Below, one piece after another: positions 12,030 to 29,028 of a DNA stretch of 33,076 nucleotides. Below the pieces are notes generated by a model. The model worked only from the letters and a program-made list of their open reading frames with translations, was not told where the DNA came from and ran no database searches. This stretch comes from Micropruina sp. (lineage in GTDB: Bacteria; Actinomycetota; Actinomycetes; Propionibacteriales; Propionibacteriaceae): the NCBI GenBank assembly GCA_018055925.1, contig JAGPGQ010000009.1, positions 1 through 33,076 of the forward strand, written 5' to 3'. Within the stretch, counting starts at the first letter, position 1. Each line of letters begins with the position of its first letter. A program made the position numbers and the translations under genes.

Positions 12030-13355
12030 ATGAGCAGGTCGATCGGGTCGGTGTCGGTGGTGGATTTCACCACCGGTATGGCCGGGCTGCTCGACACCGT
12101 CGACACCACGGTGGGGTTGTTGACCGATCGGGCCCAACTCGACCTGGTCGCCGACCTGCTCCGCATCCAGTCCCGACTCGCCGGAGTACTGCACCACATC
12201 ATCGGCGGAGTCGAGCGGGCCGAGGCGGCACAAACCGCCTATGGGGTGCCGCTGACCAGCTGGCTCGCCGGCGAACTGCGCTACACCCGGCCACAGGCCG
12301 CCGCCCTGGTGCACCACGCGAAGGACCTGCAACGGTTCGGGCAGGTCGGGGACGCGCTACGCGACGGCCGCGCCAACCAGTTCCAGGCCCGGGCCGTCAC
12401 CGACGTGTTACGCAAACTCCCCGACGACCTCCCGGCCGGGGTCGAGCGTGAGGCAGAAGCCACCCTGGTCGGCTTCTGCGACCAGTTCGACAGCCAACAC
12501 CTCAAAGGTCTGGCTCAGCATCTGCTGGAGGTCGTGGCGCCAGAGATCGCCGAGGAAGCCGAAGCCGCCCGCATGGAACGCGAACGCAAAGCCGCGCTGC
12601 GCAACCGGCACCTCACCTTCGCCGAGGACGGGCATGGATCGACGATCATCAAGGGCAAGCTCCCCACCGGGGATGCGGCACTGTTGAAAGCGCAGATTGA
12701 TGCGTTGGCGCACCAGCTGCACCGCACCGCCCTCGAAGAACGCGACCCGCGCCAAGGCGAGGTCACCTGGCCGATGCGCCGTGCTGACGCCCTGGTGGAG
12801 TTGGCCCGGAGAGTCGCCGTTCAGCAGGCCGCACCCAAACATGGCGGCGACCGTCCCCACGTCACGATTACCATCCGTTACGAGGACCTACTCAAGGACT
12901 GCTGGAACGCACGGCTGGCGAACGGCCACACGTTGACCGCCGGCGAACTGCGCCAGTACCTGTGTGATGCCGACATTCTGCCGGTGGTGCTTGGCGGGCC
13001 GCCAGGGGTGCTCGACGTCGGCCAGAAGCACCGGCTCGTCACGCCAACGATTCGGCAAGCCCTCCACGCCCGTGACCAGGGCTGTGTGTTCGCGGGCTGT
13101 AACCGGCCAGCCGCTGACTGTGACGCTCACCACATCGTCCCGTGGCAGCACGGTGGCGCCACCTCGTTGGCGAACCTGTGTTTGCTGTGCAAACACCACC
13201 ACAACCTGATCGAACCCGACGCTCGACGACCGGCCGATCTGCAATGGCAGATCCGGATCAGTTCCGACGGTGTCGCTGAGGTGATTCCGCCGCGTTATGT
13301 GGATCAACACCGGCGGCCACGCCGACACCAACGATTCCGACGAACAGACTGTTGA
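12030..13355 (+). CDS. DUF222 / HNH endonuclease (13E12-type family)
   Basis: 441 residues. The DUF222 region covers about residues 20-320, and a C-terminal HNH domain covers about 352-394 (CVFAGCNRPAADCDAHH, then NLCLLCKHHHN). The histidine pair (367-368), the asparagine (382) and the final histidines (389-391) give a complete metal-finger nuclease; paired cysteines could hold zinc. The family is hugely expanded in Actinomycetota, known in mycobacteria as 13E12 repeats, and its biological role is unsettled. I chose the ATG at 12030 because the longer frame starts inside the GGTGTTGTC array. The gene sits in a repeat-rich island beside a dead transposase, consistent with a mobile or recently duplicated copy. 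Confidence 0.88.
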   Translation: MSRSIGSVSVVDFTTGMAGLLDTVDTTVGLLTDRAQLDLVADLLRIQSRLAGVLHHIIGGVERAEAAQTAYGVPLTSWLAGELRYTRPQAAALVHHAKDLQRFGQVGDALRDGRANQFQARAVTDVLRKLPDDLPAGVEREAEATLVGFCDQFDSQHLKGLAQHLLEVVAPEIAEEAEAARMERERKAALRNRHLTFAEDGHGSTIIKGKLPTGDAALLKAQIDALAHQLHRTALEERDPRQGEVTWPMRRADALVELARRVAVQQAAPKHGGDRPHVTITIRYEDLLKDCWNARLANGHTLTAGELRQYLCDADILPVVLGGPPGVLDVGQKHRLVTPTIRQALHARDQGCVFAGCNRPAADCDAHHIVPWQHGGATSLANLCLLCKHHHNLIEPDARRPADLQWQIRISSDGVAEVIPPRYVDQHRRPRRHQRFRRTDC

Positions 13356-14977: not shown

Positions 14978-15922
14978 CTAGGCGTCGAACAACGACGAGA
15001 TCGACTCGCCCCGGTCGATCCGGCGGATCGCCTCGGCGAACAGGGGCGCCACGCTCAGCACGGTCATGTTCGGCAGCCGCTTCTCCGGCGGCACCGGGAC
15101 GGTGTTGGTGCAGACGATCTCGACCAGGTCGTCCTGCGCCCGCAGCCGCTCCATCGCCGGACCGGTGAACAGGCCGTGCACGCAGGCGGCCGAGATCGAG
15201 TTGACCCCCACCTCGCGCAGCTTGTCGAACAGTTCGATCAGGGAGCCGCCGGTGGCGATCTCGTCGTCGAGCACGATCACGTCCTTGCCCGCCACGTCGC
15301 CCACGATCGAGTCGATGATCACCTTGTCGTCGGCCATCCGACGTTTCGAACCGGCGGCCACCGGGATGTCCAGCAGCCGCGCGAAGTGGTTCGCCTCCTT
15401 GACGTTGCCGAAGTCGGGCGACACCACGACCGCGTTGCTCAGGTCCCGTTGCCGGAAATGCCTGGCCAGGACGTGGTTGGGGCTCAGGTGATCGACCGGC
15501 ATCTCGAACATGCCGTGCACCTGTGGCGAGTGCAGCGCCATGGTCACCACCCGCTTCGCGCCCGCCTTGTGCATCAGGTCGGCCACCAGCCGGGCGCCGA
15601 TCGAGATCCGCGGCGCGTCCTTCTTGTCGCTGCGCGCGTAGGCGTAGTGCGGCATCACCACGGTCAGGTGGCCGGCGGACGCGCCGCGCGCGGCGTCCAG
15701 CATCAGCAGCAGTTCGACCAGGTTCTCCTGTACCGGCGGGACCAGCGGCTGCACGATGAACACCTCGCGCTTGCGGCAGTTGGCACCCAGGTGCACCTGC
15801 AGGCAGTCGTTGGAGAACCGCGTGGTCTGCGACGGCGCCAGCGGGACGCCGAGCAGGTCACACACCTCCTGCGCGAACTCCCGGTGGGCGGAGCCCGAGA
15901 AAACGGTGATGTCGCTGGCCAC
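14978..15922 (-). CDS. prs: Ribose-phosphate pyrophosphokinase, divergent form
   Basis: 314 residues, matching the usual length. It transfers diphosphate from ATP to ribose 5-phosphate, making PRPP for nucleotide, histidine and NAD synthesis. The N-terminal FSGSAHREFAQEV and the flexible-loop ATP segment YARSDKKDAPRISIGA are present (canonical YARQDRK). The metal-site His131 lies in ALHSPQVHGMF, and the PRPP loop is DDEIATGG (219-226, canonical DDMIDTGGT). These departures suggest a second, divergent Prs rather than the main housekeeping enzyme, though that needs the rest of the genome. The start is a GTG at 15922 with no Shine-Dalgarno; TAGGGT (15931-15936) eight bases upstream could be the -10. 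Confidence 0.9.
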   Translation of the reverse strand: MASDITVFSGSAHREFAQEVCDLLGVPLAPSQTTRFSNDCLQVHLGANCRKREVFIVQPLVPPVQENLVELLLMLDAARGASAGHLTVVMPHYAYARSDKKDAPRISIGARLVADLMHKAGAKRVVTMALHSPQVHGMFEMPVDHLSPNHVLARHFRQRDLSNAVVVSPDFGNVKEANHFARLLDIPVAAGSKRRMADDKVIIDSIVGDVAGKDVIVLDDEIATGGSLIELFDKLREVGVNSISAACVHGLFTGPAMERLRAQDDLVEIVCTNTVPVPPEKRLPNMTVLSVAPLFAEAIRRIDRGESISSLFDA

Positions 15923-15977: not shown

Positions 15978-17885
15978 TCACCCCGGTTCGCCGCAGGGGA
16001 AGGTAGCGGTCAGGACGGTGCCGTGCAGGGAGTCGGGCTCTATCGTCAGCGCACCACCCAGTTCCTCGCAGCGCTGCCGCATCGACTCCGTGCCGACCCC
16101 GCCGTCACGCGGACCGACGTAGCCACGCCCGTCGTCCCGCACGATGAGGGTCAGCTCCTCGGCCGTCCGCCGGATCTCGACCCTGGCGTGGGTCGCCTCG
16201 GCGTGCCGGACGCAGTTGGCCAGCGCCTCGTCCAGGACGCGATAGAGCGCGACCTCGGCGGCCGCCGGGACTCCTTCCAGCCGGTCATCGATGGCCACGT
16301 CGATCTGCAGGCCGCTTTGGACGTGCCGGTCGACAAGGCCGGTCAGCGCCGGCACCAGTCCCCGGTCGAGGGCCGGTGGCCGCAGACCGTCGATCGCGCG
16401 CCGCAGTTCGTCCGAGGCCAGGCCGAGATCGTCCTCCAGCGCCCGTACCGCCCGCTCGTCGGTGTCCAAGGTCGCCGAGAGCGCACGCAGCTGCATCCGG
16501 GCGCCGCTCAGCACCGGACCGACGCCGTCGTGCAGGTCCCGGCGCAGCCGGCGGCGTTCCTCCTCGCGCATCGTGACCAGGCGTTCGCGAGTGTGCTGCA
16601 GGTCACGGATCAGCCGGACGGCGGCCGCCGGCGCCGCGATCTGCAGGGCGAGCGCCTTCAACAGGCGCCGCTCCCGTGGCAGCCAGGGTTCGTCCGGGGC
16701 GCGCTGCTGCACCACCAGGTGCCCGATCGTCGCGCCCCGATGAACGAGCTCCAACGAGGCGACCGGCCAAGGCCGCCGGGTGCCGGCGGAGCGCTCCGGC
16801 TGGTCCCCCGGCTCCAGCAACACCGCCACGTAGGGCACCCGGAGACCCTCCGCGACCCGCTCGACCACCTCGGTCAACATGTCCCCGGGGGTCAACGCGC
16901 GGCCCACACCGCGGGCCAGCGCCGTGAGCAGCTCGTACGGGCTTCCGCTCTGCCCGTACACCCGTCGATCGATCAGGCGCTGCAGCCAATCGCGCAGCGG
17001 AAGGGCCAGCAGCGCCACCGCGGCGGCCACGACCGGGGCGCCCTCGGCCGGGAACAGGCGGACGACGAACGCGGCCAGCAGGGCGTAGACGCCCACGAGG
17101 GCCGACGCGAGGATTCCGTAGAGCAACGAGCGGTGGATGACCGTATCGATGTCGTAGAGGCCGTAGCGAAGGATCGCCACGACGGTGGCGGCGGGAAAGG
17201 CCAGAGCGGCCAGGATTGCGACCAGCGGCACATCGACCATTTCGAGGAGCGAGCCCACAACGAGCAGCACGGTGGAGATCGCGCCCCAGATCAACGGCCG
17301 GCGACGCCCGGGATCGGTCCGCCGGATCCGCATGACCACGGAGACCAACGCCACGGGAGCCGCCACCAGGAGGAAGATCAGTCCGATCCTCGCCGCATCG
17401 GTGTCCCAGCCGGGGCTGACCCGTTCGCCGGCGAGCAGTTCCTGGGGGCTGCGCCAGCCGAGGGCGATCAGGCCGACGAATCCGTAGCCGAGACCGAGAC
17501 CGAGCACCAAGACGGAGATCCGCCATCGCGGGGACGGCAGCCGCCCGTCGGGGAAGTAGAAGCAGGTCAACGCGAGCAGCGCATAGCTCGGGTAGGACGC
17601 CCAGGTCCGGACGGACAGCCCGGGCCCGACCGTGGCCAACGAGGTCCCGGCCGCCAAGGCTGCCAGGAGCCCGACTCCGAGGAGCAGCCATCCGTAGCTG
17701 TTGCCGGGCGCGTGACTCGCGATCCGGGCACCGACGACGAGCGTCGCGAAGCCGAGGAAGGCGTCGCGCCACTGGACATCGCCGCCCACGGGCCTTTCGG
17801 CCACGAGGCTCACGATCACTACCGTGAGCCCCGTGGCCGCGACCGCCCAGGCCACCAACGACGCCCGGAACGCCGGAGCAGTCAT
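15978..17885 (-). CDS. Membrane sensor histidine kinase, NarL-partner (HisKA_3) type
   Basis: 635 residues. The N-terminal half has roughly eight to ten hydrophobic segments, ending near residue 330. About residues 350-430 look like a GAF-type domain (SPYELLTALARGVG, then VPYVAVLLEPG). The dimerisation helix has EERRRLRRDLHDGVGP with phospho-acceptor His452. The ATPase domain has DEALANCVRHA (Asn557) and DDGRG (584-588). All catalytic motifs are intact. It probably phosphorylates the divergently encoded response regulator at 18353. The ATG at 17885 follows the small-protein stop by 13 bases, so the two are co-transcribed. No extracellular ligand domain is evident; a membrane signal or the small protein may be sensed. 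Confidence 0.92.
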   Translation of the reverse strand: MTAPAFRASLVAWAVAATGLTVVIVSLVAERPVGGDVQWRDAFLGFATLVVGARIASHAPGNSYGWLLLGVGLLAALAAGTSLATVGPGLSVRTWASYPSYALLALTCFYFPDGRLPSPRWRISVLVLGLGLGYGFVGLIALGWRSPQELLAGERVSPGWDTDAARIGLIFLLVAAPVALVSVVMRIRRTDPGRRRPLIWGAISTVLLVVGSLLEMVDVPLVAILAALAFPAATVVAILRYGLYDIDTVIHRSLLYGILASALVGVYALLAAFVVRLFPAEGAPVVAAAVALLALPLRDWLQRLIDRRVYGQSGSPYELLTALARGVGRALTPGDMLTEVVERVAEGLRVPYVAVLLEPGDQPERSAGTRRPWPVASLELVHRGATIGHLVVQQRAPDEPWLPRERRLLKALALQIAAPAAAVRLIRDLQHTRERLVTMREEERRRLRRDLHDGVGPVLSGARMQLRALSATLDTDERAVRALEDDLGLASDELRRAIDGLRPPALDRGLVPALTGLVDRHVQSGLQIDVAIDDRLEGVPAAAEVALYRVLDEALANCVRHAEATHARVEIRRTAEELTLIVRDDGRGYVGPRDGGVGTESMRQRCEELGGALTIEPDSLHGTVLTATFPCGEPG

Positions 17886-17898
17886 CGACAGCCTTCGC

Positions 17899-18255
17899 TC
17901 AGCAGCCGAACAACGAGCAGAACCAACGACGGATGGGGTTGCCCGGGTTGGCCGGGCCCGTGAGCGGGGGCAGATTCTCCAGGTTCGGCCAACCCTTCCG
18001 GACTGTCCACGGGTCGTCCTGCCTGGAAAAGGCGGTTTCCACCCCGCGCCACACCGCGGCAACGGTCACGACGACCGTTCCCTGGGGAACCCGCACGCCC
18101 GCCGTCGGATGTGCGTTGATCCCGCGGCGGTAGAACTCGTCCACCCAGGCCTGGACCGACGGGGTGGCATCGATCACCAGACACCGCTTCGAGTCGGCAC
18201 CCTCGGCCGAATCGGACGATGGTGCGGTCACCATTCCCTGCGTCATTTCCGACAT
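17899..18255 (-). CDS. Small protein of unknown function with C-terminal CxxxxC
   Basis: 118 residues; I do not recognise it. The N-terminal 22 residues are polar and Ser/Asp-rich. A possible folded core follows (RCLVIDATPSVQAWVDEFY, then VPQGTVVVTVAAVW). The tail is Pro/Gly/Asn-rich and ends IRRWFCSLFGC, with Cys113 and Cys118 (the last residue) and one more cysteine, Cys25. It has no signal peptide or membrane helix. The ATG at 18255 has AGGAG six bases upstream; a GTG six bases earlier is too close to that site. It leads an operon with the histidine kinase and is divergent from the regulator, sigma factor and subtilase genes. It could be a signal ligand, a substrate of the protease, or a modified-peptide precursor; all are guesses. 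Confidence 0.7.
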   Translation of the reverse strand: MSEMTQGMVTAPSSDSAEGADSKRCLVIDATPSVQAWVDEFYRRGINAHPTAGVRVPQGTVVVTVAAVWRGVETAFSRQDDPWTVRKGWPNLENLPPLTGPANPGNPIRRWFCSLFGC

Positions 18256-18317
18256 GTTCACTCCTGCTTCTCGACGTGGCCGTAGGGTACGGCTCGCGGA
18301 GAAGATGGACTATCCCC

Positions 18318-18346
18318 ATGACATTGATACGGGTAATTCCTACACT
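18318..18346 (+). promoter_or_regulatory. Promoter of the response regulator, leaderless
   Basis: ATGACA (18318-18323) matches the -35 consensus at five of six positions. A 17-base spacer leads to TACACT (18341-18346), and the ATG follows after six bases. This would place the transcript start at or next to the start codon. There is no Shine-Dalgarno before that ATG. It is the best promoter in the window. Confidence 0.6.
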
Positions 18347-18352
18347 CTGCCC

Positions 18353-19000
18353 ATGGTGGGGGCATTGGAGCCGGCGGTCGTGTTGCTGGTCGACGACCAT
18401 CCGGTGGTCCGGCGGGGACTGGTCGCATTGCTCGGCGGCGAGAACTGGATCGGACGGACGATCGAGGCCGGTACCATCGCCGAGGCGTCGAAGCTCGCCG
18501 TCCTGGAGCGACCGGACATCGCGGTCGTCGACCTGGGGCTGCCCGACGGCGACGGGGTGAGTCTGTTCCGGGTGCTGCAGCGCTCGACTCCGCAGTGCTC
18601 GATCGTGGTGCTCACCATGACCCACGACGACGCCACCGTGCGGACCTGCCTGGAGGCGGGCGCCTCGGGCTATCTGCTCAAGGAGTCCGCTCCCGATGCC
18701 CTGCTCCCGGCGCTGCGCACCGTCCGCGACGGTGGCTTGGTGCTGGGTCCACAGGTCGCAACCAACGCGCTGGTGGGCGTGCGCCGCAGCGTCCCCTCGC
18801 CCTTCGACGTGCTCAGCCCTCGTGAGTTGCAGCACGTCGGCCTGCTCGCCTCCGGACGGTCCGGACCACAGATCGCCAGTGCCCTGAACGTGACCGAGAA
18901 GACTGTCCGCAACCAGATGGCGGGGATACTGGCCAAGGTCGGTGCCGCGGATCGTGTGCAGGTCGCACTGATGGCGCGGGATGCGGGCCTGCAGCTGTAA
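18353..19000 (+). CDS. NarL/LuxR-type response regulator
   Basis: 215 residues. The receiver domain has the acidic pair Asp14-Asp15, phospho-acceptor Asp60 in VVDLGLPDG, a conserved Thr in VLTMTHDD and Lys in YLLKES. The LuxR helix-turn-helix spans about 154-213 (LSPRELQHVGLLASG, then VTEKTVRNQMAGILAKVG). It should dimerise and bind DNA when phosphorylated by the adjacent kinase. The start at 18353 fits the leaderless promoter; an in-frame ATG at 18305 would add 16 residues. Likely targets are its own divergent region and the downstream sigma factor and subtilase genes. Confidence 0.92.
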   Translation: MVGALEPAVVLLVDDHPVVRRGLVALLGGENWIGRTIEAGTIAEASKLAVLERPDIAVVDLGLPDGDGVSLFRVLQRSTPQCSIVVLTMTHDDATVRTCLEAGASGYLLKESAPDALLPALRTVRDGGLVLGPQVATNALVGVRRSVPSPFDVLSPRELQHVGLLASGRSGPQIASALNVTEKTVRNQMAGILAKVGAADRVQVALMARDAGLQL

Positions 19001-19092
19001 GGACGTGAGGCTCTCCGGTCGCCGGGCATTCCTCCCGCTCGGCCCGGGCAATTGTCCTCTTCGAACCGGCTGTGCTGCCGGACGCTCGATAC

Positions 19093-19668
19093 ATGACCAC
19101 ACGGACCAACACTGCCGCCGAGCGCGGAGGCTCCACCCATTGGCCGAAGGATCTCCTGCAGCGCCTCGCCGATCGCGACCCAGACGTCTGGGAACGGGTG
19201 GTCTCGGCCTACCGGCCGTGCATCTACGCCCGGGCGGCCCATCTGCGGCTCAAGCCGTGGCAGCGCCACGATCTCGAACAGCGGGTGTGGCTCGCGCTAC
19301 TGGAGAACGCCATGAGGATCCGGGACGCCGCGTGCCTGCCCGGCTGGCTGTCGACCACGGCACGCCGGGCGGGACTGCAGCTGCTGCAACAGGAGGGCCG
19401 AGAGATCCCCACCGATCACTTCGCGGCGAGCAGCGCCGGCACCGGCAGCAACGACGTGGAGCAGCAACTCCTGGACGCCGAACGCCTGAGCCAACTGCGC
19501 AACGCAGTCGCCCGGCTGAATCCACGACAGCGCCAGGTCGTGCAGGCGCTGCTGAGGGATCTGTCGTACGACCAGTTGGCCGCACAGCTGGGCATCCCCA
19601 TGGGCAGCGTCGGGCCGACCCGACAGCGGGCACTGACCAACCTGCGGATCGCTCTCTCGGCCGCCTGA
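19093..19668 (+). CDS. Sigma-70 family (ECF-like) RNA polymerase sigma factor
   Basis: 191 residues from the ATG at 19093; a GTG at 19072 would add seven. Region 2 spans about residues 25-90 (DPDVWERVVSAYRPCIYARA, then HDLEQRVWLALLE), with a WLSTTARR segment as in region 2.4. Region 4 is clear near the C-terminus: LNPRQRQVVQALLRDLSYDQ, LGIPMGSVGPTRQRAL. No anti-sigma factor gene is adjacent, so activity may be set by transcription from the neighbouring two-component pair. The subtilase lies next on the same strand and is a plausible target. No Shine-Dalgarno is obvious. Confidence 0.88.
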   Translation: MTTRTNTAAERGGSTHWPKDLLQRLADRDPDVWERVVSAYRPCIYARAAHLRLKPWQRHDLEQRVWLALLENAMRIRDAACLPGWLSTTARRAGLQLLQQEGREIPTDHFAASSAGTGSNDVEQQLLDAERLSQLRNAVARLNPRQRQVVQALLRDLSYDQLAAQLGIPMGSVGPTRQRALTNLRIALSAA

Positions 19669-19928
19669 CGCTGGCCGCACCCAACCGGTCACATCCCGGA
19701 TCTCGCCGGCCGAGATTGCCAAAGAACCACCCCGGACAGATCTCGCCAAGCCCGACCGACGACTTTCGACAGGCAGCCGACTATTCGCCGGTTGAGCTTG
19801 TCGCAACCCAACGGCCAAGCTCCGACGAACTCGATCAACGCCCTTCAACCGGAAGGGTCTCGACAAGTCTGGTCATCGGCGATCAAATGAACCGGCGCCT
19901 TCACAGAAGGAAGAACGGAGCACGACCA
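19669..19928 (+). other. Sigma-subtilase intergenic region with three small hairpins
   Basis: There is no gene here. Stem-loops can form at 19700-19716 (ATCTCG/CGAGAT), 19790-19808 (GGTTG/CAACC) and 19841-19857 (CCCTTC/GAAGGG). TTCGACAGGC (19765-19774 or so) and GGTTGAGCTTGTCG (19790-19803) resemble a widespread actinobacterial intergenic repeat that I recall as GGTTGAGCTTGTCGAAACC. The first hairpin may end the sigma message. A subtilase promoter should lie here, but I could not place it. Confidence 0.4.
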
Positions 19929-21446
19929 ATGTCAACCGACGCATCACCGGCCGAGCATTCGCAACCATCCGGAGCCGACCCGATCGGATACGTGCGGCCG
20001 ACGCACGTCATCGTGCGGCTCGATCGCGGAATCGAGGCCGACTCGTTAGACGACCTTCTCGCCGTGGCCACCGAGTTCGGCCTGAGCGATCTGTTCGAGC
20101 AACTCATAAGGCACGATGTCCCGGCGCGACGGGTGATCAGAGAGGTCCCGCCCGAGGAACTCCGCAGGATCGAACGCGAGAACGCCGACGACTCACAGGA
20201 ATGGCCGAGCCTCACCCAATACTGGCGGCTCGACCTCCGGGACGGCCGCTTCCGTCCCGAGGAGGTGGCGTCGGCCTTCCGTGCCCTGGAGGTCGTCGAA
20301 CGCGCCTATGTAGAGCCGCCGGTCGTCCCCGCCGGCGGCCGCGCGGTCCGTCGGGCCCGCCTAGCCGGGCAGCGCGCCGTGCCGGAGGGCCCATCGACGG
20401 CCCTCCCCACCAAGGCATCCCATCTCGACGCGGCACCGCTGGGCATCAACGCCCGGTGGGTGTGGGAGACCTACGGCCTCTACGGCGAAGGCGTCCATCT
20501 TGTCGACGTGGAACAGGGCTGGCTCTTCGACCACGAAGCGCTCCGGCACCTGAAGGTGCCGCCGCTCCTGGCCGGGCTGAACGCCCACGAGGCGGGCGGT
20601 AGTGGCGACCACGGCGCCGCCGTCCTAGGGATCGTGGCCGGCGAGTACGTGCCGCCCAACGGCGTCCGCGGGGTCTGTCCGCGGGCGAGTGTGCTGGCCG
20701 CCTCACACTTCCAGGGCTTCGACGACACGATCCACGTGGCCGACACGCTCGCGAGCCTCGGGTCCCTGCGTCCCGGCGATGTGGTGCTCCTCGAGGTGGC
20801 CGCGATCGAGGGCAGTGACGACGGCTATGGCGACACCGTCGCCGATCAGCGCCCGATCGAGCGGGACGAGTGCGTCCAGAACGCCATTGGTCTCCTCACC
20901 AGGCAGGGCATCGTGGTGATCGAGGCGGCCGGCAACGGTGACCAGGACCTGGACCGACTCGGAACCGACGGCGACCTCGCGCAACTCAGGGTCGGCGCCC
21001 CCGGCTATCTTGACTCGGGGGCGATCATGGTCGGGGGCGCGGAGGTTCCGTCCCCGTCGACCGTGGCCGACTGCCACCCGCGCTGGACGGACGACTACAA
21101 CCCCGGAATCGGATCCAACTACGGCAGCCGAGTCAATTCCTATGCGTGGGCCCGGCGGGTGTGGAGCAGCGGCTGCGAACCCTACGGATCGTGCGATCCG
21201 CGGACCAGTTCCTACCAGATCTTCACCGCCACGAGCGCGGCCAGCGCGATCATTGCCGGCGCCGCGGTCCTGCTCCAGGCCGTCCATCGGGAGTACCTCG
21301 GCTCGTCGCTGGAGCCGGAGAAGCTGCGCGAGCTCTTCGCCGACCCGGACAACGGCACCGATTCGTTGCCGGACGCCCAGGGCGGGCGGGTGATCGGGGT
21401 GATGCCCGACCTGCGTAGGGTCGCCGCCGCCTTGGGCTTGGCCTGA
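19929..21446 (+). CDS. Cytoplasmic S8 family serine peptidase (subtilase)
   Basis: 505 residues. The catalytic residues are Asp193 in LVDVEQGW, His228 in GDHGAAV, oxyanion Asn336 in EAAGNGD and Ser436 in ATSAAS. All are present, so it should be active. There is no signal peptide or membrane segment, so it probably acts in the cytoplasm, unlike most subtilases. The first 160 or so residues are an N-terminal region whose last part (LTQYWRLDLRD through VVERAYVEP) resembles an I9-like propeptide. The DVEQGW form around the Asp marks an uncharacterised subfamily seen in several bacterial phyla, to my knowledge. The ATG at 19929 has GGAG eight bases upstream. The neighbours, a sigma factor and a two-component system, suggest tightly conditional expression. 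Confidence 0.9.
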   Translation: MSTDASPAEHSQPSGADPIGYVRPTHVIVRLDRGIEADSLDDLLAVATEFGLSDLFEQLIRHDVPARRVIREVPPEELRRIERENADDSQEWPSLTQYWRLDLRDGRFRPEEVASAFRALEVVERAYVEPPVVPAGGRAVRRARLAGQRAVPEGPSTALPTKASHLDAAPLGINARWVWETYGLYGEGVHLVDVEQGWLFDHEALRHLKVPPLLAGLNAHEAGGSGDHGAAVLGIVAGEYVPPNGVRGVCPRASVLAASHFQGFDDTIHVADTLASLGSLRPGDVVLLEVAAIEGSDDGYGDTVADQRPIERDECVQNAIGLLTRQGIVVIEAAGNGDQDLDRLGTDGDLAQLRVGAPGYLDSGAIMVGGAEVPSPSTVADCHPRWTDDYNPGIGSNYGSRVNSYAWARRVWSSGCEPYGSCDPRTSSYQIFTATSAASAIIAGAAVLLQAVHREYLGSSLEPEKLRELFADPDNGTDSLPDAQGGRVIGVMPDLRRVAAALGLA

Positions 21447-21491: not shown

Positions 21492-21566
21492 ATGTCGGAA
21501 CCCACCCCCCAGAACCGGCGCCGCCAGCCACGTCAGGACGCGCACAGAACAGCCACCCGGCGGTGA
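21492..21566 (+). CDS. 24-residue upstream ORF coupled to the EAL gene
   Basis: It encodes 24 residues, rich in Arg and Gln (NRRRQPRQ). Its stop overlaps the EAL gene's GTG start as GTGA. The ATG is the natural first codon of a leaderless message. It could be a translational leader that delivers ribosomes to the GTG, as no Shine-Dalgarno stands before that GTG. It may lack any function as a peptide. Confidence 0.45.
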   Translation: MSEPTPQNRRRQPRQDAHRTATRR

Positions 21567-22333
21567 GCGTCCAGGTCACGGACGCCGTCGGGTTGCGCCG
21601 GGCGATCGCCGCCGGGGAGATCATCCCCTGGTACCAGCCGATCCTCGACCTGGCCGGCGGCCGGGTGATCGGTGTCGAGGCCCTCGCCCGCTGGCCCCGT
21701 CCGGACGGCCTCGTCCCGCCGCAGGAGTTCATTCCCCTGGCCGAGGACAGCGACCTGGTGATCGAGCTGGACCTGGTGGTCATCCGCCGCGCCCTGGCCG
21801 ACCTGAGCCGGTGGCAACGACTCCGGCCCGGCTTCGAGCTGAACGTCAACGTCTCGGGCCGGCACCTCGATTCCGCCACGGGGGTCGCCGACCTGATCGC
21901 GGCGGTCGAATCCGCCGGCGTCGCCCCCGGCACGCTGTCGGTCGAGCTGACCGAGAGCGCGCGTCCGGTGGCGGCCGATCGCGGAGCCCCCGGCCTGGAC
22001 GCCCTGCGCCAGGCCGGCGTGCTGGTGTTGCTGGACGACTTCGGCTCCGGCTACTACGGCCTGCGGGACCTGATCCGGCTGCCGGTGGACGGGATCAAGT
22101 TCGACCGGACGTTCACCGCCCTGCTGGACCTGCCCCGCACCGCGCCACTGCTCGGCGGGCTCACCGAGGCGGCCCACCGGATGGGCCTGCGGGTCACTCT
22201 CGAGGGCATCGAGACCCCGGCGCAGGCGGACATCGCCCGCGAGCTGGGGTGCGACTTCGGCCAGGGCTTCCTGTGGTCGCGACCGGTGCCGGCCGAGATG
22301 GTGCCCAGCCTGCTCAGCGCGACACCGGGGTAG
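21563..22333 (+). CDS. Stand-alone EAL-domain cyclic-di-GMP phosphodiesterase
   Basis: 256 residues, almost all EAL domain. The metal and catalytic set is complete: Glu39 in the EAL motif (39-41), Asn96 in NVNVSG, Glu128 in ELTES, Asp158-Asp159 in LLDDFGSG, Lys179 in GIKFD, Glu214 in EGIET and Gln234 in FGQGFLW. It should hydrolyse cyclic-di-GMP to pGpG. It has no sensor or membrane domain. The gene runs convergently into the membrane GGDEF gene and overlaps it by 20 bases, and a BcsA-like synthase with a PilZ domain lies just beyond. It is the likely off-switch of that module. Confidence 0.92.
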   Translation: MSVQVTDAVGLRRAIAAGEIIPWYQPILDLAGGRVIGVEALARWPRPDGLVPPQEFIPLAEDSDLVIELDLVVIRRALADLSRWQRLRPGFELNVNVSGRHLDSATGVADLIAAVESAGVAPGTLSVELTESARPVAADRGAPGLDALRQAGVLVLLDDFGSGYYGLRDLIRLPVDGIKFDRTFTALLDLPRTAPLLGGLTEAAHRMGLRVTLEGIETPAQADIARELGCDFGQGFLWSRPVPAEMVPSLLSATPG

Positions 22334-24554
22334 CCGGCACATCGCCGTACAGCGGTCCCAGCCCCAGCTCGCACCCGGCGGCGGCCAACGCCTCGGCCTC
22401 CGACTCGGTCGAGATCCCGGGCGCGATCACCCCGTAGCCGAACGCGTTCGCCGTCTCGACGGTCAGCCGCAGCAGCAGGGTGCCGTCGGTCAGGTTGAGC
22501 AGCCGACGATCGAGCCGGACGTAGTCGAACGGCACCCGGGCCCAGCGGTCCGTGCCGCTGTCGTCGGCGCCGAAGCTGTCGGCGCAGATCCGGACGCCGA
22601 GCCGGCGGAGCTGCGCCAGCGTGTCCAGCACCCGCACGCCGCCCGCCTCGTCCGACGGGACCAGCAGCATCAGCCGGCCGGCCACCAGTCCGGCCTCCAG
22701 CGCCGAGGTCACGTCGGCCAGGATCGTGCCCTGGGCGAGGTGGCGTCCGGTCACGGGAACCAGCAGCCAGCCGTCGCCCGGCCGGTCCAGCACCCCGGTG
22801 CGCAGCACCCAGCTGTCCAGGTCGCACAACTTGTCGGTGCCCCGGGTCAGGGGCAACAGGTCGGGGCGCGGCCACCGTTCCCCATCCGGTCCGGTCACCG
22901 TCACCTCGAGCTGTTCGCCGGCGAGCAGCCCGGTGCGCAGGTCGATCATCGGGCTGGGCTCCACCGTGGCCGTGCCGTGCCGCAGGGCCCCCACGATCGC
23001 CGCCTCGACCGCGGCCCGGCTCTCCACCTCGGCGCGCAGCGACGGCGCGAACACCTCGACCCGCCCCCGGCCACCGGCCTTCGCCCGGAAGACCGCATGA
23101 TCGGCCTCCTGCAGCAGCCGGTCGGGGTCGATCGCGATGTCGCTGTTGATCGCCACCCCGATGCTGGCACCGATCCGGGCCTCGCGACCGGTGCTCAGCC
23201 GGATCGGTTCGGCCAGGTCGGTGACCAGCCGTTCGGCCACCCGCACCGCACTCACCTCGTCGTCGATCGGCTCCAGCAGCACGACGAACTCGTCGCCGCC
23301 CAGGCGGGCGACCACGTCGCCGCCCCGGACGGCCCGCTGCATCCGTTCGCCGGCCACCGAGAGCACCTCGTCGCCGGCCGCGTGGCCCAGGGTGTCGTTG
23401 ACCTGCTTGAACCCGTCCAGGTCGATGAACAGCAGGCCCACCAGGTCGCCGGCCCGCCGGGCGCGGTTCAGCGCGCCCCGGATCACCTCGATCGCCTGCG
23501 CCCGATTGGGCAGGCCGGTGAGCGGATCGTGCGTCGCCTGGTGCCCGAGCGCCACCAGAGCCCGTTCCCGCTCGGCCTGGGTCTGCTCCATCGCCCGCAC
23601 CGCGACGCCGATCCGCGCCATCACCAGCACGCAGGTCAGCGCCCAGCCGATCACGATCGGCCAGACATCGACGGGCTGCCCGCTCAGCGCCTTCGCCGCC
23701 AGCAGGGCAACGGGCATGACCAGCGCCACCGCCAGCGCGATCAGCCCGGAGCGGCTGAAGGACCGCTCCGGTTCGGGCGCCGGACGGCTCACCGGCGCCA
23801 TGGACGGATGCAGCGCGGCGGCCGCCCACAGCAGGTAGGAGGTCATCCAGACGAACTCGAGCTCGTCGCTGGCGGCCCAGGTCAGCTGCTCGAAGGCCGA
23901 CGCGAGCACGTCGGCGAGCAGCAGCGCCCCCACCGCGCCCGTCAGCAGCCAGAACGACGGCGTCCGTCCCCACGGTGTCGGCACCATCCGGATGACGATG
24001 GTGGCCAGCACGACATCGGCCACCGGATAGGCGATGCTGACGACCGCGGCCAGCGTGGACACGTCCAGGGCGGCGAGCGTCGGCTGGGCGAGCGCGACCC
24101 AGGTGAGCAGGCCCAGCGCGGCCGCCAGGATGCCGCTGTCCAGGCGTCCGGCCAGCCCACGCCGGGAGCGTTCCCGGTTCAGCAGCAGCAGGCCGACGCC
24201 GACGACCGGGTAGCCGATCAGGTAGACCACGTCGGCCGGTGCCGGGAACCGTTCGTGGCCGAGCAGGTCGGCGTCGATCGCGCCGACCGTGTCGGCGATC
24301 GACCAGACCAGCTGACCGGCCGCCATCAGGTACCAGGGCAGCGCCCGTGCCGGGCGGTGCATCCGGATGCCGACGACGATGCCCACGGCGGAGACCAGGC
24401 CGAACAGCTGGAAGGCGATCGAACGGGGCAGCCCGTCCGGCAGCAGCCGGCTGACGATGATCCCGGCGGCCCCGAACACCAGCAGCAACCACCACGCCCG
24501 GGACCCGGACGCACCCGTGCGGGGCGCCGGTTCGACGGGCCGGGCGTCAGCCAT
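22314..24554 (-). CDS. Membrane diguanylate cyclase with degenerate EAL domain
   Basis: 746 residues. About eight to nine membrane helices occupy residues 20-315. The GGDEF domain follows, with the active site ARLGGDEF (419-423) intact and an inhibitory-site RGGD (410-413) at the correct five-residue spacing, so product inhibition is expected. The C-terminal 230 or so residues align to an EAL domain but lack its catalytic set: the EAL region reads GEQLEV, NVN becomes PVTGRHL, DDFG becomes ADSFGAD, EGIET becomes PGISTE. It probably makes cyclic-di-GMP and uses the dead EAL for binding or interaction. The ATG at 24554 overlaps the synthase stop by eight bases, so the two are one operon. Confidence 0.9.
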   Translation of the reverse strand: MADARPVEPAPRTGASGSRAWWLLLVFGAAGIIVSRLLPDGLPRSIAFQLFGLVSAVGIVVGIRMHRPARALPWYLMAAGQLVWSIADTVGAIDADLLGHERFPAPADVVYLIGYPVVGVGLLLLNRERSRRGLAGRLDSGILAAALGLLTWVALAQPTLAALDVSTLAAVVSIAYPVADVVLATIVIRMVPTPWGRTPSFWLLTGAVGALLLADVLASAFEQLTWAASDELEFVWMTSYLLWAAAALHPSMAPVSRPAPEPERSFSRSGLIALAVALVMPVALLAAKALSGQPVDVWPIVIGWALTCVLVMARIGVAVRAMEQTQAERERALVALGHQATHDPLTGLPNRAQAIEVIRGALNRARRAGDLVGLLFIDLDGFKQVNDTLGHAAGDEVLSVAGERMQRAVRGGDVVARLGGDEFVVLLEPIDDEVSAVRVAERLVTDLAEPIRLSTGREARIGASIGVAINSDIAIDPDRLLQEADHAVFRAKAGGRGRVEVFAPSLRAEVESRAAVEAAIVGALRHGTATVEPSPMIDLRTGLLAGEQLEVTVTGPDGERWPRPDLLPLTRGTDKLCDLDSWVLRTGVLDRPGDGWLLVPVTGRHLAQGTILADVTSALEAGLVAGRLMLLVPSDEAGGVRVLDTLAQLRRLGVRICADSFGADDSGTDRWARVPFDYVRLDRRLLNLTDGTLLLRLTVETANAFGYGVIAPGISTESEAEALAAAGCELGLGPLYGDVPATPVSR

Positions 24555-26679
24555 CCTTCGCGGACCCGGTGAGCATCGGCGGCTGTTCGCCGTACTGGGC
24601 GGTCAGGGTCGGGATCCGGGTGGAGCGTGGCCCGGTGCGCAGGGCGACCACCGGAACCCCGTCCGGCAGTCCCTCGGTCACCCCGGCCGGGGTGTGGAAC
24701 AGCCACAGCGCGATCACGCGGTAGGCGGCCCAGTCGCCGAACCGGACGCGGAAGGAGGCGATCTCGGACGCCCCCTCGCCGCGCACCCGCACGGTTTCGA
24801 GCAGGATCGGCTCGTCCTGCCCCGGCAGCACCAGGGCGATCTCGGACGCCGGCGGCAGCGCCCCGGCGGGCATGGAGACGGCGACCCCGCCGAGGGAGAT
24901 GTCGACCAGTTCGCCGGCCGCGCCGTTCACGGTGATCGGCGCCCGGACTCCCACCCGGTAGGCGTTGCGCCTCGAGGTCGCGAACTGCACCGCCTGGATC
25001 CGCCGGATGCCCATCAGCAGCACCACCCCGGCCAGCACCACCCAGGCGCCGGCGGTCACGGTGGACGACGGCGAGCTCTGCCACGGGACGACGCCGGCGA
25101 CCCCGAGGGCCGCGTACAGGACGACCGCGACGATCAGTCCGAGCAGCCACCACAGGATCCGCGGGACGTGGCCGCGGCGGCGCTCGTCGGAGCCGGCCTT
25201 GGGGGTGACGGCGAAATCGAGCGAGCGCCGGGTGAGCAGCCACCACAGGCAGGCCAGTCCGACCGGGATCCGGAGGATCCGCAGGGCGAACGCCGTGCCC
25301 CAGTGCAGGTGCAGCCGGTACAGCCGCCGGGCTCCCCAGAGCCGGACCACGAACAGCGCGGTGAACACGGCCAGGAACAGCCACGGGTCGGCCGTGGACA
25401 CCTGTGCCCCGCTGAGCAGCACGATCACCGGCACCAGGAAGCCGGCGACGGTCGCGACCCCCTCCAGCCACCACACCGTGGCGTCCAGGTACTCGTAGTA
25501 GCCGCGCCACGACAGCCAGCGCTTCGCCGCCCACAGCCGCTCGCGGACCAGCACCTGCATGCAGCCCAGCCCCCACCGGCGGCGCTGCAGCAGGTACTGC
25601 TCGGGGGTCGCGGGCGCCAGCCCCAGCGCCAGCACCTGGTGGTGGTAGGCGGTCTTCCAGCCGGCCCTGACCAGCAGCATCGTGGTGTGCAGGTCCTCCA
25701 CGATCGTGTCGATGGCGATGCCGCCGACCTGCTGCAGCGCGCTCACCCGGATGAACGAGGTGGAGCCGCACCAGGACGTCCCCGCCCCCGCGTGGTCGCG
25801 GGCGGGCAGCTGCACGTGGAAGAACACGCCCTGCTCGCCGGTGTCGCCGTCGTCGTCGAAGGCGCCCGAGTTGTAGTAGGTCTGCGGCGCCTGGACGAGC
25901 GCCAGCTCGGGGTCGCGGAACCAGCCCAGCGTGCCGGTCAGGAAGTGCGGCAGCGGGACGTGGTCGCAGTCGAGCACCCCGATGATGTCGACCGGCTCGG
26001 CGCCGGCGGCGACCTCGGCGGCCATCAGCTCCAGGGCGTGGTTCATGTTGCCGGCCTTGGCGTGCACATGCTCGTCCCGCCGGACGTAGCGGGCGCCGTA
26101 GGTCTCGCAGAGCTCCCGCACCCAGGGCCGGTCGCCGTCGTCCAGCACCCAGGTCTGGTGGGCGGGTTCCAGGGCGACGGCCGCGGCGATGGTGGGCGCG
26201 ATCACCTCGACGGGCTCGTTGTAGGTCGGGATGAAGACGGCGGCCCGCAGGCCGGTCTCGACCGTGGTCACCGGCTCCGGCCCGGAGCAGTCGAGCCGCC
26301 ACAGATTGCACGCCCGGATCACCAGGCCGGACACCGGGAGCACCTCGAACGCGACCAGCAGCCAGGCGGCGAACAGGTTCCAGCCGCCCGACGGCAGGGT
26401 GAACATGATCCGCCAGGTGCCGTACACGACGATCGCGGTGATCGACGCCAGCACACCGATCCGCGCCCAGGTCCGGGAGCGGCTGGTCTCGGTCCCCAGC
26501 AGCCGCAACCCGGGCGTCCAGCCGGCCAGCCGGGTGTCGGGTGCCGTCGCGACACGCGCCACGTCCGCCCGGAAGGACGAACGACTCATTCCGCCGGTGG
26601 CGGGCCGGGCGTCGTCCGGTGGCGGGTCGGTGGGCCCGGGGCGCGCCTCATCGAGCGCGGAGGACGGCTGGGGGTACAC
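24547..26679 (-). CDS. BcsA-like polysaccharide synthase (GT2) with PilZ domain
   Basis: 710 residues. Two helices lie near residues 74-120, then a family 2 transferase core: PTYNEP (151-156), Asp180-Asp181, DCD (237-239), the base motif VED (327-329, canonical TED) and QRRRW (365-369). The SWCGS segment (302-306) and the gating-loop motif FAVTPK (489-494, canonical FxVTxK) match cellulose synthase BcsA. Further helices follow, and a PilZ domain binds cyclic-di-GMP through RNAYR (571-575) and DISLGG (593-598). It should polymerise a beta-glucan, probably cellulose, across the membrane when cyclic-di-GMP is high. BcsB and a GH8 endoglucanase are not visible. The GTG at 26679 has GAGGAG seven bases upstream. 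Confidence 0.92.
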   Translation of the reverse strand: MYPQPSSALDEARPGPTDPPPDDARPATGGMSRSSFRADVARVATAPDTRLAGWTPGLRLLGTETSRSRTWARIGVLASITAIVVYGTWRIMFTLPSGGWNLFAAWLLVAFEVLPVSGLVIRACNLWRLDCSGPEPVTTVETGLRAAVFIPTYNEPVEVIAPTIAAAVALEPAHQTWVLDDGDRPWVRELCETYGARYVRRDEHVHAKAGNMNHALELMAAEVAAGAEPVDIIGVLDCDHVPLPHFLTGTLGWFRDPELALVQAPQTYYNSGAFDDDGDTGEQGVFFHVQLPARDHAGAGTSWCGSTSFIRVSALQQVGGIAIDTIVEDLHTTMLLVRAGWKTAYHHQVLALGLAPATPEQYLLQRRRWGLGCMQVLVRERLWAAKRWLSWRGYYEYLDATVWWLEGVATVAGFLVPVIVLLSGAQVSTADPWLFLAVFTALFVVRLWGARRLYRLHLHWGTAFALRILRIPVGLACLWWLLTRRSLDFAVTPKAGSDERRRGHVPRILWWLLGLIVAVVLYAALGVAGVVPWQSSPSSTVTAGAWVVLAGVVLLMGIRRIQAVQFATSRRNAYRVGVRAPITVNGAAGELVDISLGGVAVSMPAGALPPASEIALVLPGQDEPILLETVRVRGEGASEIASFRVRFGDWAAYRVIALWLFHTPAGVTEGLPDGVPVVALRTGPRSTRIPTLTAQYGEQPPMLTGSAKDG

Positions 26680-26782
26680 GAATCATCTCCTCGGGGTCGC
26701 CGACCATGGCCCCCCCGAGTTGCGCCAACCATAGCGGCCCTCACCGGGCTCCACCAACGGTTCGGGACGAGCCCGGGCAGCG

Positions 26783-26816
26783 AAAACCCCCAATCACCGG
26801 GAGGCGATGGGGGGTT
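26783..26816 (-). terminator. Rho-independent terminator of pnp
   Basis: On the minus strand AACCCCC pairs with GGGGGTT, extended by a short ATC/GAT pairing, and runs directly into TTTT. It begins about 16 bases past the pnp stop. Confidence 0.75.
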
Positions 26817-26832
26817 CCCTGGAATAAATCGA

Positions 26833-29028
<2,196 letters not shown>

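Follow-up and report, generated by a model that had tools for sequence, protein, structure and literature searches.

Several bacterial polysaccharide synthases of the GT2 family have been described in connection with cyclic di-GMP (c-di-GMP). In BcsA (R. sphaeroides, structures 4HG6 and 4P00; E. coli Bcs), a GT2 core with the D,D,D and QxxRW motifs and an FxVTxK gating loop is followed by a C-terminal PilZ domain with the motifs RxxxR and DxSxxG, and synthases of this type extrude the chain via their own membrane channel. BgsA of Sinorhizobium is also a single synthase linked to c-di-GMP, with a gating motif of the form FxVTPK; it is described as devoid of PilZ motifs, as binding c-di-GMP by another C-terminal domain, and as sharing an operon with the HlyD-like BgsB (PMC5567048). 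RiGT2 of the Gram-positive Romboutsia ilealis carries both PilZ motifs and makes (1,3;1,4)-beta-glucan without BcsB; it is missing the N-terminal helix that contacts BcsB, and its authors considered a dependence on BcsB unlikely (PMC10374906). In Lactobacillus acidophilus, the dgcA-pdeA/gts locus places the sole GGDEF gene of the genome next to genes for a phosphodiesterase and for a GT2 that resembles BcsA and has a small partner, GtsA; a degenerate EAL protein encoded nearby serves as a separate receptor (PMC6123363). Here we describe a locus in a 33,076-nucleotide stretch of Micropruina DNA (contig JAGPGQ010000009.1, positions 1 to 33,076; "the window"), in which genes for an EAL phosphodiesterase, a GGDEF diguanylate cyclase and a GT2 synthase with a PilZ domain lie side by side. 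We consider it likely that the three genes form a self-contained c-di-GMP module acting as a switch for the BcsB-independent synthesis of an extracellular polysaccharide, most likely a beta-glucan.

The three-gene locus and the c-di-GMP inventory of its genome

The three genes occupy positions 21563-26679 of the window, which belongs to a Micropruina metagenome-assembled genome (MAG; here G000) whose 391 contigs add up to 3.95 Mb, with 89.5% completeness and 5.2% contamination. Profile scores were 210 bits for the EAL domain, 143 bits for GGDEF, 65 bits for GT2 and 27.6 bits for PilZ (cut-off 22.5). The synthase gene and the start of the cyclase gene overlap by 8 bp on the minus strand, and the phosphodiesterase gene is convergent with the cyclase gene, tail to tail, with a 20 bp overlap. 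A profile search of the genome, limited to the GGDEF, EAL and PilZ families, returned one GGDEF, one PilZ and two EAL domains, every one of them at this locus. The BldD receptor (PF21179) was matched in none of nine genomes, but no control genome matched either, and this result is therefore not evidence of absence.

The residues that bind metal and substrate are established for EAL enzymes. On comparison with the structures 2r6o and 3n3t, the stand-alone EAL protein was found to retain the EAL glutamate, the N of NVS, ELTE and DDFG, as well as the K of IKFD, LEGIE and the Q of GQG. The same three-gene layout was present in nine genomes (the window, L061, L062, L066, L084, L092, L157, L159 and L160), and the catalytic set was complete in all nine stand-alone phosphodiesterases. 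In the cyclase, the string RGGD-VVARL-GGDEF places an I-site RxxD five residues before GGDEF, an arrangement retained in 9/9 cassette cyclases as far as the RxxD is concerned. The second EAL domain (92 bits), fused to this protein, is degenerate; of these residues, it has P for N, DS for DD, R for K, P for E and L for Q. Across the nine cassettes the fused EAL is intact in L092, nearly intact in L084, changed in L066, L157, L159 and L160, and completely degenerate in the three Micropruina genomes (window, L061, L062). On the simplest reading of these sequences, c-di-GMP breakdown would have moved to the separate gene, leaving the fused GGDEF-EAL protein as a pure maker. A structure model of the cyclase displays about ten N-terminal helices and then a long stalk up to the GGDEF domain; its domain arrangement is unreliable because of the low pTM (0.46).

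An earlier note on this DNA had reported adjacent genes for an intact phosphodiesterase, an intact cyclase with an I-site and a BcsA-like synthase with both PilZ motifs and the gating motif, together forming a local maker, breaker and user. These elements were recovered, the synthase displaying D,D,D, QRRRW, FAVTPK, RNAYR and DISLGG, and the local unit is strengthened by its conservation and by the lack of any further GGDEF, EAL or PilZ match in the MAG. What required correction was the cyclase, which also carries the degenerate EAL; the arrangement, as the phosphodiesterase gene lies on the opposite (plus) strand and so is not part of the same operon; and the start of the locus, as an open reading frame (ORF) of 24 codons has its ATG at position 21492, whereas the EAL gene starts at 21563.

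The association was also observed in a survey of 198 genomes of the host family. GGDEF was found in 25 of these and PilZ above the cut-off in seven (G000, G003, G004, G022, G135, G136 and G140; three of them are also listed among the nine cassettes, G003 being L062, G004 L061 and G135 L092, each counted once), while 18 had GGDEF without PilZ; in an eighth genome, G071, a PilZ match fell below the cut-off and contained internal stops. In all seven, the PilZ domain lay within approximately 2 kb of a GGDEF domain (hypergeometric value 2e-7, ignoring relatedness), and in six this neighbouring GGDEF was the only one of the genome, G136 having six. The single-cyclase count does not depend on drafts alone, since G022 and G140 are single-contig assemblies of 100% estimated completeness with one GGDEF each. 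G022 has two further EAL matches, so that the term self-contained applies most strictly to Micropruina.

The synthase clade, its product and its control

A synthase homologue search of one genome per species (84,980 species) returned 80 loci, of which 36 were actinobacterial, chiefly from Arthrobacter, with 56-88% identity; the remainder were at about 42% or below, and the closest named homologues were those of Micropruina MAGs (86-88%). D,D,D, QxxRW and FxVTxK were conserved in all 35 aligned actinobacterial homologues, as were PilZ residues R580, R584, D609, S611 and G614 (R. sphaeroides numbering). A GGDEF or EAL ORF (E 1e-10) was present in the fetched flank of 21 of the 36 actinobacterial loci; local coupling of these domains to the synthase clade is thus common, not universal. 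The window genome also encodes a second BcsA-like GT2 (G000:C85:17865-19541, 30% identity), whose genus relatives (L008, L010) are without the FxVTxK motif; the only PilZ domain found in this genome is that of the window synthase.

Two trees were built, omitting L071, L094 and L095 (broken frames), short fragments, and L003 and L004 (duplicate genomes of L062 and L061); L088, with a gap in its match, was retained in the first, and the second included 18 of the 35 actinobacterial rows and five BcsA rows. The 35 rows of the first tree formed one fully supported clade (stem length 2.3 changes per site), and the 18 rows of the second again formed one clade (stem 2.5). This clade was distinct from the BcsA proteins that have BcsB neighbours, and distinct also from the HlyD-linked synthases, BgsA among them. 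Seven cassette carriers were included in the second tree, where they made up one subclade (99/97) spanning three named families. In the approximately unbiased test, a joint clade with BcsA was weakly rejected, at a marginal p-AU of 0.043 (long branch, five BcsA rows), and one with the BgsA/HlyD-linked synthases, although absent from the free tree, was not rejected (p-AU 0.255); with such a long stem neither placement is firm. Separately, the proteobacterial synthases L129, L133, L138, L139 and L140 have clear PilZ motifs, and the first four fall next to BgsA in the trees; they may be PilZ-containing relatives of the enzymes that make mixed-linkage glucans.

At positions named in the main text of PMC6821405, to which the comparison of residues was confined, the clade has Q at 298 (35/35), R at 309 (35/35) and T at 357 (34/35), as in the BgsA/HlyD group and not in BcsA, whereas 299 G, 406 N, 407 Y/F and 473 W match neither group. 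The clade also differs at 406/407, 473 and 575, positions for which strong conservation among bacterial beta-glucan synthases is described (PMC6821405). Assignment of a product from these differential residues was considered and not used as proof, three positions being non-BcsA and others fitting neither group. It is nevertheless possible that the product is a mixed-linkage or other non-cellulose glycan, like those of BgsA and RiGT2: the joint clade with BgsA that was not rejected and the three common residues speak for it, and RiGT2 supplies the example of a BcsB-free Gram-positive PilZ synthase that makes such a glucan (PMC10374906), while BgsA itself is without PilZ motifs, linkage is not determined by sequence, and the four positions that match neither group do not favor this assignment. 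Nor does any HlyD/BgsB-like gene adjoin the synthase, where the neighbors other than the cassette genes are pnp and an S8 peptidase gene; the rest of the genome was not searched for one.

We regard as unlikely the alternative that this is an ordinary cellulose synthase locus minus BcsB and BcsZ, with plain cellulose as its product. The best NCBIfam match of the synthase was indeed TIGR03030 CelA (E 1.3e-79), but at 268.1 bits versus a cut-off of 699.1, and the BcsA equivalog gave 179.2 bits versus 992. An AlphaFold2 model of the synthase (pLDDT 73.4, pTM 0.74, 27 sequences; residues 1-49 of very low confidence) had solved BcsA as its top match (Foldseek E 1e-28; Z 20.9-22.9 over 523-582 residues), solved BcsA chains were the top matches by sequence too, and the catalytic and gating motifs are all kept. 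The structural alignment begins at model residue 65, as compared to residue 58 of R. sphaeroides BcsA, and as modeled the synthase is missing the first N-terminal helices of BcsA. Set against cellulose are also the separate clade, its long stem (about 2.4 changes per site) and the marginal p-AU with BcsA, the BgsA-like residues at 298, 309 and 357, and the missing partners: in this 89.5% complete genome neither BcsB (PF03170; E. coli and B. subtilis controls matched) nor the GH8 protein BcsZ (PF01270; three controls matched) was found. The genome search for bcsB and GH8 genes, which the earlier note had suggested, agrees with its remark that no BcsB-type partner is seen. The term "cellulose synthase", on the other hand, was not supported, as the protein falls far below the CelA and BcsA cut-offs, forms its own clade and differs at residues conserved through both BcsA and BgsA.

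Glu371 is the salt-bridge partner of R580 in the autoinhibition of BcsA. That the PilZ domain is structural and the synthase constitutive, with the cyclase and phosphodiesterase acting on something else, is improbable: RiGT2 is a precedent (PMC10374906) and Glu371 is gone throughout the clade, but the five motif residues that contact c-di-GMP are invariant in 35/35, no second PilZ protein was found in the MAG, PilZ above the cut-off occurred in the family solely next to GGDEF, and an acidic residue at position 374, three residues after Glu371, is present as D or E in 33/35 and could take its place in the salt bridge. Several observations do weigh against a self-contained module that controls the synthase. 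Position 371 holds A in 30, S in 3 and D in 2 of the 35 homologues, and the BcsA autoinhibition mechanism is therefore not simply transferable, although the loss is not unique to the actinobacterial clade since, of the five BcsA rows, that of Pararhizobium is also without Glu371. RiGT2 has both PilZ motifs and shows neither binding of c-di-GMP nor activation by it (PMC10374906), so that PilZ motifs alone are no proof of c-di-GMP control. The fetched flanks of 13/36 actinobacterial synthase loci were without any GGDEF or EAL match, and the incompleteness of the MAG, together with the restriction of the inventory to GGDEF, EAL and PilZ, limits the claim that the module is self-contained.

With these reservations, the c-di-GMP module remains our preferred reading. 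The sequences show the genes with their motifs, the conservation of the unit, the co-occurrence of PilZ with GGDEF and the lack of further GGDEF, EAL or PilZ matches in the MAG; the enzyme activities, ligand binding, polymer and phenotype that we infer from them would fit together as follows. On some signal, the membrane GGDEF protein would make c-di-GMP, its output probably being capped by the I-site, and the separately transcribed EAL enzyme would degrade it. Occupation of the synthase PilZ domain by c-di-GMP would free the gating loop and start polymerization, and the chain, most likely a beta-glucan, would exit through the membrane channel of the synthase itself; BcsB would not be needed for this, and the cell has no outer membrane. 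The earlier note had asked how the polymer leaves; this puzzle shrinks in view of the BcsA-type channel, the missing first helices and the RiGT2 precedent without BcsB (PMC10374906).

Studies of c-di-GMP often face dozens of cyclases and receptors per cell. A single-cyclase species, in which neighboring genes apparently supply the only maker, a dedicated breaker and a single PilZ receptor, may allow signal specificity to be followed with little cross-talk. The actinobacterial synthase clade could also yield a new or mixed-linkage glucan, and, as Micropruina MAGs derive from sludge reactors, the polymer would be relevant to the formation of flocs there.

Surroundings of the cassette and the pnp-prs interval

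The cassette was found in three of six Micropruina genomes searched; G001, one of those without it, is just 80% complete. In G005 and G002 the prs-like gene directly follows pnp, with approximately 95 and 150 bp between them and no cassette, while in G003 the cassette sits exactly between the two. In the window, the same interval also contains an additional 5.5 kb block with genes for a histidine kinase, a response regulator, a sigma factor and an S8 peptidase, for which no match was found near pnp in G005 and G002. The block at window positions 15978-21446 (LuxR-type response regulator) lies on the opposite side of the cassette in G004. These differing contents among congeners mark the interval as a variable site and the cassette as a presence/absence trait within the genus, which could have arisen by gain or by loss. 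A mobile element was considered as an explanation, but at 73.5% GC the cassette differs little from the window as a whole (71.6%), so that base composition gives no hint of a recent arrival from a foreign source. Contamination or mis-assembly was considered and is regarded as unlikely, since two other Micropruina MAGs carry the same cassette, one of them (G003) right in the interval from pnp to the prs-like gene. More tentatively, the locus may be a portable complete network, by which a lineage gains or loses all c-di-GMP signaling at once, at a position like the pnp-prs interval, along with one c-di-GMP-gated polymer from a BcsB-free actinobacterial clade whose salt bridge would have shifted by one helical turn (Glu371 to Asp/Glu374).

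Three terminator-like sites were detected in the scanned stretch, as compared to 0.6 expected in shuffles. The hairpin after pnp points to a separate promoter for the synthase, whose transcription would start independently of pnp. A sigma-70 scan found no promoter-like site; TATGGT near 26728-26733 is a candidate -10 box, going by the actinobacterial motif. Upstream of the EAL gene, the ORF is preceded in the window by TAGCCT six bases 5' of its ATG, and the layout (GTGA overlap, TAGCCT-N6/7-ATG) is common to all three cassette-bearing Micropruina. Non-Micropruina stand-alone EAL proteins have an N-terminal GAF-like match in 4/6 cases, above the GAF cut-off in three (L092, L159, L160); in 3/3 Micropruina genomes this part is gone and an ORF of 24-28 codons stands in its place. 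Judging by its sequence context, the 24-codon ORF is possibly a leaderless regulatory ORF. Elsewhere in the window, positions 12051-13355 hold a DUF222-HNH endonuclease gene with a weak IscB-like match.

Table 1. Positions of the cassette genes and bordering features in the window.
Feature	Position	Strand	Remarks
Upstream ORF (MSEPTPQ...)	21492..21566	+	24 codons; TGA overlaps GTG start of EAL gene
Stand-alone EAL phosphodiesterase	21563..22333	+	256 aa; catalytic set intact
Membrane diguanylate cyclase	22314..24554	-	746 aa; GGDEF (I-site RGGD), then a degenerate EAL at the C terminus
GT2 polysaccharide synthase	24547..26679	-	710 aa; FAVTPK gating motif, C-terminal PilZ
PilZ domain of synthase	24739..24972	-	RNAYR, DISLGG; sole PilZ found in G000
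Terminator-like hairpin and T run 3' of pnp	26787..26803	-	sequence scan
pnp (PNPase)	26833..29028	-	one border of variable site
prs-like gene	14978..15922	-	other border of variable site

Comparison with described systems

In the open-access PMC literature no paper was found on c-di-GMP in Micropruina, on c-di-GMP or GGDEF in Propionibacteriaceae, or on an actinobacterial or Arthrobacter PilZ cellulose synthase and BcsB, nor was a described product for the actinobacterial synthase clade. The window synthase has the GT2 core, the catalytic and gating motifs, the fold (Z up to 22.9) and the C-terminal PilZ motifs in common with BcsA, and departs from it in its separate clade, in the absence of the first helices, of Glu371, of Gln406/Arg407 and of Glu575, and in a genome in which, at the completeness given above, neither partner was found. 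With BgsA it has in common the FxVTPK form of the gating motif, the residues at 298, 309 and 357 and the predicted link of a single synthase to c-di-GMP; it differs in bearing PilZ motifs and in having no HlyD-like gene next to it (PMC5567048). RiGT2 resembles it, by its published description, in the Gram-positive host, both PilZ motifs, the lack of BcsB and the missing N-terminal helix (PMC10374906). With the L. acidophilus locus it shares a sole GGDEF with a phosphodiesterase and a GT2 resembling BcsA as neighbors, as well as the degenerate EAL, whereas the candidate receptor is not a separate protein but a PilZ domain fused to the synthase (PMC6123363). By analogy, the circuit would follow the logic known from BcsA and from the L. 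acidophilus locus with its one cyclase, and what appears to be new is a PilZ-fused, BcsB-free actinobacterial synthase.

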